This document shows, in pieces, positions 1-3,806 of a stretch of DNA of 33,052 bases. How positions within the stretch are numbered: the first letter of the stretch is position 1; each line of letters starts with the position of its first letter. The position numbers and the translations under genes are program-made. The stretch lies in contig CAITEF010000662.1 in the NCBI GenBank assembly GCA_903891315.1, positions 1 through 33,052 of the forward strand. The letters run 5' to 3'. This DNA comes from an uncultured Rhodospirillales bacterium. Lineage in GTDB: Bacteria; Pseudomonadota; Alphaproteobacteria; Acetobacterales; Acetobacteraceae. The notes under the pieces were generated by a model that saw nothing but the letters and a program-made list of their open reading frames with translations, was not told the origin of the DNA and ran no database searches.

Positions 1-370
1 AAGGTGCGGGCAGGGGGAGCACTCCTCGGCGCAAATTTCCGAAATCGGCGCAAAACCACACACGCACACCCGTATTGGCTGCCGCCGTCGCGAAAACCGG
101 GGTGCCCCCCCTCGATCTTTTTTCTAGGCCGGAATTCCACAGCAGCCGCCCCCTCGCCGATCACAACATGAGGGAGGCGTCATATGGCGCGGCGTGACGA
201 AACGGATCGCCAGACCGAGCGGACCGGGCCAGATCGATGCTCGGCTTGGTCGCAGAGGGCAGCTTAGACCTGCATGGCTGGCCGCCACCCCGCACCCTGG
301 CCGCACCTCTCAACGCCAATCGTCTCAATAGAGCCTGCCCTAGTGATACGTCTCACGCATCGTGAAAAAC

Positions 371-405
371 TGTCTCATACAAATTGTCTGTTGACTTTAG
401 AGACG
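371..405. promoter_or_regulatory. candidate resolvase-binding (res-like) repeat array upstream of serine recombinase
   Basis: TGTCTCATA (371-379), TGTCTGTTG (385-393) and inverted GAGACG (400-405). Further CGTCTCA copies at 321 and 349. Lies directly upstream of the resolvase gene, the usual place for res sites. Confidence 0.4.
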
Positions 406-453
406 CATCAAATGCTAACGTCTTAGATGTCATTGATACACATGAGGCACACC

Positions 454-1065
454 ATGGCACGCAAGACCGCTCCCGCCGCTTTAACCACGCCAGCAGCCAG
501 GACAGGCAGCATCGTCGGCTATGCTCGCACATCCACCATCGAGCAGGAGGCCGGGCTTGCAGCACAGGAGCGTGATCTCCGGGCAGTCGGCTGCACACGC
601 ATATTCGCCGAGCAGATATCGAGCGTGGTCACGCAGCGTCCCCAACTGATTGCCGCGCTCGACTATCTCCGGGAGGGTGATGTTCTGGTTGTCGCCAAGC
701 CGGACCGCTTGGCACGCAGCACCGCCGATCTCCTCGGCATTGTCGAAACCCTGAACACGCGAGGCATCGGCCTGCGCATCCTTTCCATGGGTGGCGGCGA
801 GGTGGACACGCGCAGCCCTACCGGCAAACTGATGGTTACGATGCTCGGAGCAATCGCAGCGTTCGAGCGCGAGCTGATGCTTGAACGGCAGCGGGAAGGC
901 ATCCGCCGAGCTGCTGAGGAAGGCAAATACAAAGGCCGGGCTCCAACGGCCCAGCGCAAAGCCGATGAAATCGCCAAGCTACAGGCGGAGGGCATTGGCC
1001 CCACAGAAATCGCCCGTCGCCTGGGGATTGGCCGAGCCAGCGTCTATCGCGTGATCGGCAAGTAA
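454..1065 (+). CDS. serine recombinase / resolvase-invertase family protein
   Basis: ORF 427-1065; ATG at 454 preferred (MARKTAPA...). Contains GYARTSTIEQEAGLAAQERDL (catalytic Ser region), KPDRLARSTADLL, GKLMVTMLGAIAAFERELMLERQREGI and a C-terminal HTH (GPTEIARRLGIGRASVYRVI). Confidence 0.93.
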   Translation: MARKTAPAALTTPAARTGSIVGYARTSTIEQEAGLAAQERDLRAVGCTRIFAEQISSVVTQRPQLIAALDYLREGDVLVVAKPDRLARSTADLLGIVETLNTRGIGLRILSMGGGEVDTRSPTGKLMVTMLGAIAAFERELMLERQREGIRRAAEEGKYKGRAPTAQRKADEIAKLQAEGIGPTEIARRLGIGRASVYRVIGK

Positions 1066-1087
1066 GAGACTCGCCGCCCCAATCAGC

Positions 1088-1118
1088 CGAGCTGCATGAC
1101 GCAAGGTCATGCGGCTCG
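1088..1118. terminator. hairpin between convergent resolvase and integrase genes, candidate terminator
   Basis: CGAGCTGCATGAC-GCAAG-GTCATGCGGCTCG: 13-bp stem with one mismatch/wobble and a 5-nt loop, just after the resolvase stop. No strong T tract. Confidence 0.5.
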
Positions 1119-1281
1119 TGCTGTTTCTGAACTACACCGCAACAGCCCAGCAGTCCGGCCCAGTGCTGTCAGGCGGAAAAGCAGATCACGTCTGACAAAC
1201 TAAGGTTAATGTCAGGCGTTCCGTCATACAGACCGCGCATCTGGTCAGACGATTGCAGCCATCTCGCGAGCCTGCGCGCAA

Positions 1282-2694
1282 TCATCGCGCCATCCCTCGC
1301 ATTTCGATCACGTTCGATCCTGCGGAGTGAGCTGCCTTTTTTCGGGATAGCCCAGACGTCGCTCCGCTTGGGTCGGCCCCGGCGGTGGTCACATGCTTCG
1401 CCCAATCCTCTAGCGCCTGCCGTCGCTCCGTCAGATAGTCGTGACGCTGATAGACCGCCGCAACGCCCTGGATGACGCTGCCAGTGTGGTTCAGCACCCG
1501 GTCCGCCACTTCCCACCTTACGCCCAGCTCTGCCATTGCCGTCGCGCCCGATCGGCGGAAGTCATGGATGCGCCACGGGTTCAACGGCTCTGCCGGACGC
1601 CCGGTCTGAGCCGCGCGCTTGATCCGCTCTGTTAGGATCAACCGATCAAGCCGCTCCTTTGCCCTGCTGAAGCCAGAGAGGGGCGTATCGCCCGTTGTGG
1701 TGAAGACGAACTGCGACGGCTCAAGTGAGCTAGGCAAGGTGCGGCGCGGGATACTTTGCAGGATGGCCTGCACCGGAGCTGTCAGGTGCACAATGTGTGG
1801 ACGGCGGTTCTTCGTGCGAGAGCCAGGAATGTCCCAGCGCGTGCAATCTTCGTTCAACTCACACCAACGCATGCCAGCAACTTCGGCCTCCCGCTGCAAT
1901 GTCAGCAGCAGGACCTGGAAGAACTGCATCCAGGGCCAACCAAGATCAGCCGAGCAGCGCCAGACCTCTCCCACCTCACGCTCTGACAACGCGCGCTCGC
2001 GTGCCACAGACCGACCTTCGATGTGAACGGATACAGCCGGATTTGACGGCACCAGGTCATTCTTCAGCCCCCAAGCGAACATTGCATGGGCATAGGCGCG
2101 GACCCGTCGCTGGATAGTGAAGCCCGGCACGTTGCTTTCTGGGGATGGCCCTCGCGCGACGCCGCCGGAGGCACGGCCATTTTGCTCCGCAATCTTGGCC
2201 AGTTCCCTTCGCAGCATCGGTGCGTCCACCTTCACCGCCGGAACATCGAGGATGCTCGCCAACGTGCGCCGAAGCGCTCTCGGGGCCTCGCGCTGGTAAT
2301 TTGCGCTCTTGTGAACCAAGCACTCTTGCTGCCAGCTCGCGATAAGCCTCTCAAACGTGAATTTATCCTGCTGCGCCAGCGCCGCTACATCAGCGCGCTT
2401 GCGCCTCTCCTCATCAATCTCCGCCTTCCTGCGCCCGACTGGATCACCTCCGGCGGCCACCTCCCCGCGTGCTACTTCCGCCAACTTGCGTGCTTGCGCT
2501 GGCGTCAAATCGCCATAGCGCCCGATCCGCAAGCGCTGCACCAATCCGCCGCGCCGGTATTGGAACATGAAAACCTTCGCGCCGTTCGCAGTGACCCGCA
2601 CACCGAAGCCAGGCAGTGCATCATCAAAAACGACCATATCCTTGCGGTCCGGCGGACAGACAAGCGCATCGATATCAGATTTTCCAAGCTTCAT
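1282..2694 (-). CDS. tyrosine-type site-specific integrase (DUF4102/P4-like)
   Basis: ORF to 2730; ATG at 2694 gives MKLGKSDIDALVCPPDRKDMVVFDDALPGFGVRV (DUF4102-like N-terminus). Catalytic-domain motifs: LLTLQREAEVAGMRWCEL, HDFRRSGATAMAELGV, VLNHTG. Confidence 0.92.
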   Translation of the reverse strand: MKLGKSDIDALVCPPDRKDMVVFDDALPGFGVRVTANGAKVFMFQYRRGGLVQRLRIGRYGDLTPAQARKLAEVARGEVAAGGDPVGRRKAEIDEERRKRADVAALAQQDKFTFERLIASWQQECLVHKSANYQREAPRALRRTLASILDVPAVKVDAPMLRRELAKIAEQNGRASGGVARGPSPESNVPGFTIQRRVRAYAHAMFAWGLKNDLVPSNPAVSVHIEGRSVARERALSEREVGEVWRCSADLGWPWMQFFQVLLLTLQREAEVAGMRWCELNEDCTRWDIPGSRTKNRRPHIVHLTAPVQAILQSIPRRTLPSSLEPSQFVFTTTGDTPLSGFSRAKERLDRLILTERIKRAAQTGRPAEPLNPWRIHDFRRSGATAMAELGVRWEVADRVLNHTGSVIQGVAAVYQRHDYLTERRQALEDWAKHVTTAGADPSGATSGLSRKKAAHSAGSNVIEMRGMAR

Positions 2695-2884
2695 TTCGCC
2701 ACCACCAATACCAACAGCCTGCGGACTCACACCTTCAGCGGACTCGCCGAGGACTCTTTCAGAGTCGCAGTCTTGGTGCGTGGTGATGTTTCTTGAAAGT
2801 TAAATCAAGACAAAGCCTCACTATAAAATACGCTTTGCGTCTTCTGATGTGTTCTAATGCAATATAGTGTGAATACTAAGGCTC

Positions 2885-2929
2885 CTCTTAATCAGCGGGT
2901 CGAAGGTTCGAGCCCTTCAGCGCCCACCA
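2885..2929 (+). other. 3' fragment of tRNA-Lys(CTT) including encoded CCA; putative attachment site of the integrative element
   Basis: CTCTTAATCAGCGGGTCGAAGGTTCGAGCCCTTCAGCGCCCACCA matches the anticodon loop, T-arm and acceptor 3' strand of a Lys(CTT) tRNA. Preceding bases do not supply the 5' anticodon stem, D-arm or 5' acceptor strand. Located ~190 bp upstream of the integrase start. Confidence 0.85.
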
Positions 2930-2946
2930 TTTTATTCGGCCCCGCT

Positions 2947-2966
2947 CACGGCGAAAACGCGCCGTG
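2947..2966 (+). terminator. hairpin downstream of the tRNA fragment, candidate terminator
   Basis: CACGGCG-AAAACG-CGCCGTG perfect 7-bp stem shortly after the tRNA 3' end. Confidence 0.45.
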
Positions 2967-3080
2967 GCTTCCCTACCGATTTCCCTGTGGTAGGCCGGCG
3001 AATCCGAGACTTTCCCAATGGCGGCTGCCCTCCCCGCAGTTCATTGATCTGTCCCCGGACTCCCGCCCAAAACTGCGGCT

Positions 3081-3806
3081 ATGATCTCCCTGGCCGCTGG
3101 GCCGTCATGGAGGCCGACATTGCGCAAGGAATTTCACAACACCCATCGCACCGGATGGCTGCGCGCGGCTGTGCTCGGTGCCAATGACGGCTTGGTCTCC
3201 ACCGCCAGCCTCGTGCTCGGCGTCGCGTCTGCGGAGGCGTCCAGAGGCAGCGTCCTGCTTGCCGGAATCGCAGGCCTCGTCGCTGGTGCGATGGCGATGG
3301 CGGCGGGCGAGTATGTCTCGGTCAGTTCCCAGGCCGATACCGAAAAGGCCGATCTGGAAATCGAGCTCAAAGGCTTCGAACTCGATGACGCCGCCGAGCA
3401 TGCCGAGCTTGCCGAAATTTATGTGCAGCGCGGGCTGACGATCGAATTGGCGCGGCAGGTGGCCGATCAATTGATGGAATTCGATGCGCTCGGTGCCCAT
3501 GCGCGCGACGAGCTGGGGATCAGCGAGGTTCTGAAGGCACGCCCGCTGCAGGCGGCGGGGGCGTCGGCGGCCAGCTTTGTTTTGGGGGCCGCGATGCCGC
3601 TGCTGGTCACGCTGGTGGCACCTGATCGATATCTGGGCGAGCTGATCGCCGCCGCATCCCTTGTATTTCTGGCACTCCTCGGTGCGGTGGCCGCCCACGC
3701 AGGTGGCGCCAGCCGAATTCGAGGAGCCGTGCGCGTTCTGGTTTGGGGGGCATTGGCGATGGCCGTGACAGCGGGTGTCGGGCACTGGATCGGCACGCCG
3801 GTCTAA
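3081..3806 (+). CDS. VIT1/CCC1 family (Fe2+/Mn2+) transporter
   Basis: HRTGWLRAAVLGANDGLVSTASLVLGVASA...AGAMAMAAGEYVSVSSQADTEKADLEIE...; typical VIT family motifs. True start may be downstream, near 3120. Confidence 0.9.
   Translation: MISLAAGPSWRPTLRKEFHNTHRTGWLRAAVLGANDGLVSTASLVLGVASAEASRGSVLLAGIAGLVAGAMAMAAGEYVSVSSQADTEKADLEIELKGFELDDAAEHAELAEIYVQRGLTIELARQVADQLMEFDALGAHARDELGISEVLKARPLQAAGASAASFVLGAAMPLLVTLVAPDRYLGELIAAASLVFLALLGAVAAHAGGASRIRGAVRVLVWGALAMAVTAGVGHWIGTPV

Follow-up and report, generated by a model that had tools for sequence, protein, structure and literature searches.

A displaced tRNA-Lys(CTT) 3' fragment beside a tyrosine integrase gene marks the probable edge of an integrative element in an uncultured Rhodospirillales bacterium

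The tRNA-Lys(CTT) gene of an uncultured Rhodospirillales bacterium has very probably received a mobile element, inserted by its integrase, and part of that gene is left as a displaced scar beside the integrase gene (int). The element is most likely a prophage or a similar integrative element. The scar, CTCTTAATCAGCGGGTCGAAGGTTCGAGCCCTTCAGCGCCCACCA, lies near the left end of the window, that is, the whole stretch of 33,052 nucleotides that was analysed, which corresponds to the complete contig C662 (1-33052) of a draft genome with 697 contigs. Because the window is the whole of this contig, the element breaks off where the contig does; its assembled part comprises only 2.9 kb (Table 1), and its full length and cargo would lie mostly beyond it. 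Tyrosine-integrase recombination would have taken place between the attP of the element and the 3' half of the host tRNA gene, with a crossover probably in the anticodon loop. The 3' half carried by the element itself would then have completed the tRNA gene anew at the far (left) end, and the original 3' half would have been displaced to the right end, beside int. An element of this structure may still be able to excise.

Table 1. Features at the left end of the window, across the border between the putative element and the chromosome
Feature	Position	Strand	Basis or remark
Visible end of the putative element	1..2884	.	Remainder past the contig end; window is C662 1-33052
Serine recombinase (resolvase/invertase type)	454..1065	+	PF00239, PF02796, phrog_125; convergent with the integrase
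Tyrosine integrase of 470 aa, reading away from the scar	1282..2694	-	PF00589, PF13356; phrog_1 integrase
int upstream region and putative element-side attachment-site arm	2695..2884	.	Between scar and int; arm function presumed
Attachment-site scar, displaced 3' part (nt 32-76) of tRNA-Lys(CTT)	2885..2929	+	45/45 identity to congeners
Native sequence 3' of the tRNA gene, resident chromosome	2930..3080	.	Comparison with G001 and G006
VIT-family transporter, resident neighbour	3081..3806	+	PF01988; G006 ortholog 85% identical

The displaced fragment runs from C32 of the anticodon loop to the 3' CCA, with the anticodon CTT at 2887-2889, and is identical at every base to the intact tRNA-Lys(CTT) of the congeners G001, G002 and G006. 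Comparison with congeners that have an intact site reveals no continuation of the tRNA to the left of 2885 and no match in 2695-2884, bearing out the first-pass annotation, which had read these 45 bp as the portion from the anticodon loop through CCA, with the 5' half absent. ARAGORN calls no tRNA in the window. Rfam likewise finds none within the first 6 kb, the fragment presumably being too short for it. The match is far beyond chance, because no dinucleotide shuffle yields even the first 31 bases of the scar at 3 mismatches. The 45-bp sequence is present as a single copy in the bacterium's own assembly.

Just inside this end of the element, as in other tRNA-site integrative elements, lies the gene for a tyrosine integrase possessing an arm-binding domain in addition to PF00589. 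By homology to relatives that start with MKLGKREIDAL, its start codon is the ATG at 2694, 191 bp from the scar, where about 190 bp had been estimated previously. Candidate catalytic residues (the R in LTLQR, HDFRR, LNH and the tyrosine in VYQRHD) align with those of relatives, and the gene is, as judged from its sequence, apparently intact. A scan of genome contigs with the integrase revealed no confirmed relative, none of the phage matches listed for the integrase exceeds 33% identity, and a plasmid search returned matches mainly to resolvase genes. A second resolvase gene was observed on another contig of the same genome (C270:2-146 onward, L119), with a 73% DNA match to window positions 759-903; it is followed by what reads as a terminase/ATPase-type gene, and perhaps belongs to another prophage or to the same element.

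The association of the integrase with a tRNA fragment is a property of its relatives as well. A search of 200 genomes of the same family at E <= 1e-60 found matches in 24 of them, the bacterium's own genome counted, and 25 of the 26 relatives examined possess a tRNA 3' fragment that lies upstream of int at a distance of 183-532 bp, with the strand and geometry seen in the window; the exception (L082) is a sequence that ends 307 bp past int. These upstream matches are fragments rather than intact tRNA genes, begin mostly near the anticodon loop, and derive from Lys, Ala, Thr, Phe, Pro, Arg, Cys and other tRNAs, an identity that short matches render uncertain at several loci, the Cys case being L091. 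At 25 loci the 600 bp upstream of int were compared with control stretches taken inside or downstream of it, and at every one of these loci the best upstream tRNA match (26.3-99.6 bits) outscores all the controls (18.3-24.3 bits). Other routes to tRNA fragments exist, and the 45 bp could in principle be a chance resemblance, or a non-mobile partial duplication of a tRNA gene, beside an unrelated integrase. Such an origin is contradicted by the recurrence of the same geometry in the relatives and its absence from the control stretches, and by two-ended elements at the same tRNA gene (described below), and is given next to no credence here. Tentatively, and with somewhat less than even confidence, the relatives may represent one integrase lineage within the family whose target changed repeatedly across about eight tRNAs, the 3' fragment nearly always staying on the int side and starting near the anticodon loop; if true, the lineage would be a useful set in which to study how integrases change their tRNA target. 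At L091 (G166:C45), where the relative integrase adjoins the tRNA-Cys fragment, there is also an ARAGORN call of tRNA-Ile(TAT), 94 nt long, which lies on the other strand and about 1 kb upstream of the integrase.

Complete elements in related bacteria display both ends of the arrangement. On a single contig of G152 (C20), 55-bp direct repeats 21.4 kb apart enclose a prophage with int at the fragment end, an intact tRNA-Lys(CTT) at the opposite end, and terminase, endolysin, primase and virion genes between the repeats, phage structural and packaging functions among them. This prophage shares with the window the tRNA and the position of int at the fragment, and differs in that both of its ends are visible, in that its integrase is only 41% identical, and in that no resolvase match was found within it. 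The regenerated tRNA and direct repeat are also evident in G193 and G023, on two contigs each: in each genome an intact tRNA-Lys(CTT) stands on one contig and a fragment adjoining int on another, the two having exactly 45 bp in common. The G193 element (C104, C137) is, on sequence comparison, the nearest relative of the window's element in layout, because it combines a related integrase (52% identical) with a resolvase 72% identical to that at 454-1065 in the same convergent order with int. It comes from a different genus, and its contig, too, is truncated and ends with a primase-like gene; a search of the bacterium's own genome for a 550-aa open reading frame that marks the G193 element found nothing. 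In the congener G007, 51 bp are common to an intact tRNA-Lys(CTT) (C9) and a fragment with int (C42), the latter encoding a distant integrase (26%). Fragments in the relatives and two-ended elements at the same tRNA thus agree that the layout in the window is the expected outcome of integration into a tRNA 3' end.

To the right of the scar, gene content and comparison with congeners identify resident chromosome. The first 11 bases after CCA are nearly identical to those of G001 (a 56-bp match at 98%), and the tRNA 3' end makes up the first 33 bp of contig C765 of G006, followed by about 160 bp and then the VIT ortholog (85%), a junction that matches the right junction of the window. That the right side might be a second element was considered and rejected, since a DNA methylase with a RAMA domain, GlnD and MutS are encoded there. 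The placement of the border at about 2929, with mobile DNA to the left and chromosome to the right, agrees with the geometry of the integrase relatives, the G006 junction and the housekeeping genes, and a border at 2929/2930 is well supported. The earlier reading of the fragment as an att scar at the right edge of an integrative element is likewise supported, because four lines of sequence evidence agree: fragment geometry in the relatives, the two-ended elements, the tRNA-VIT junction of G006 and the housekeeping genes. Counting against it, VIT in G001 is on a different contig and does not directly adjoin the tRNA. As a separate observation, two contigs of G006, C223 (L053) and C765 (L071), both end in the tRNA-Lys(CTT) 3' region; because they differ after CCA, G006 may itself carry an insertion at this gene or be a strain mixture.

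A further point against insertion by the integrase concerns the far (left) end. No intact tRNA-Lys(CTT), and no 5' half of it, was found in the bacterium's own draft assembly, and the repeat pair is consequently not seen in this genome; truncated tRNA matches on C489 and C293 were rejected as the missing gene, being not Lys. In congeners, tRNA-Lys(CTT) is preceded by genes that we take to be livH, livM and livG, names that reflect our own reading of the sequences, and the livH-tRNA flank is kept in five of them. The bacterium's own livH ortholog (92%) begins at base 1 of contig C479, without its first 123 codons, and because this neighbour is broken there, an assembly gap beyond the end of C479 is the probable place of the intact tRNA, although the gene may instead have been lost. 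Of the earlier reading, the intact tRNA at the far left is the one part not seen here. In the comparison with empty sites, the left flank (five congeners) and the right flank (G006) were each recovered, but never both on one contig, and the want of a clean one-contig empty site also counts against the insertion. Alternatively, the locus could be a relic in which a deletion removed most of the element together with the regenerated tRNA, leaving int, resolvase and scar, with AAG codons read by tRNA-Lys(TTT). Consistent with such a deletion, an assembly that is 96% complete lacks an intact tRNA-Lys(CTT) and contains tRNA-Lys(TTT). A relic is nonetheless improbable, as the reading frames of int and the resolvase are both open, int keeps catalytic-type motifs, and the broken livH points to a tRNA neighbourhood that is an assembly gap.

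The scar and int, read as the trace of integrase-mediated insertion, are a fresh example of a well-known and ordinary kind of insertion, and extend by one the record of tRNA-Lys(CTT) as a recurrent site of integration. For annotation, a border at 2929/2930 means that VIT and the genes rightward of it should not be called mobile. Fragments of tRNA genes left by mobile elements have been discussed previously (PMC9897764). In Sinorhizobium meliloti, phiLM21-like prophages and islands sit in the 3' end of tRNA-Lys(CUU) gene 039, and their attP, 46-49 bp long, has the same sequence as the tRNA 3' end (PMC11476347). Those elements and the one in the window are both alphaproteobacterial and both at the 3' end of tRNA-Lys(CUU), but they belong to different bacterial families, the window's element is cut, and the likeness is one of site (PMC11476347). 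Both the principle of the displaced fragment and a subsite in the anticodon loop are standard, as in the tRNA-gene islands catalogued by Islander (PMC4383910). Unlike in those islands, the intact tRNA end of the window's element is outside the assembly; like those with an anticodon-centred attP (site A), it has a displaced 3' fragment with int inside, and in both the fragment starts in the anticodon loop (PMC4383910).
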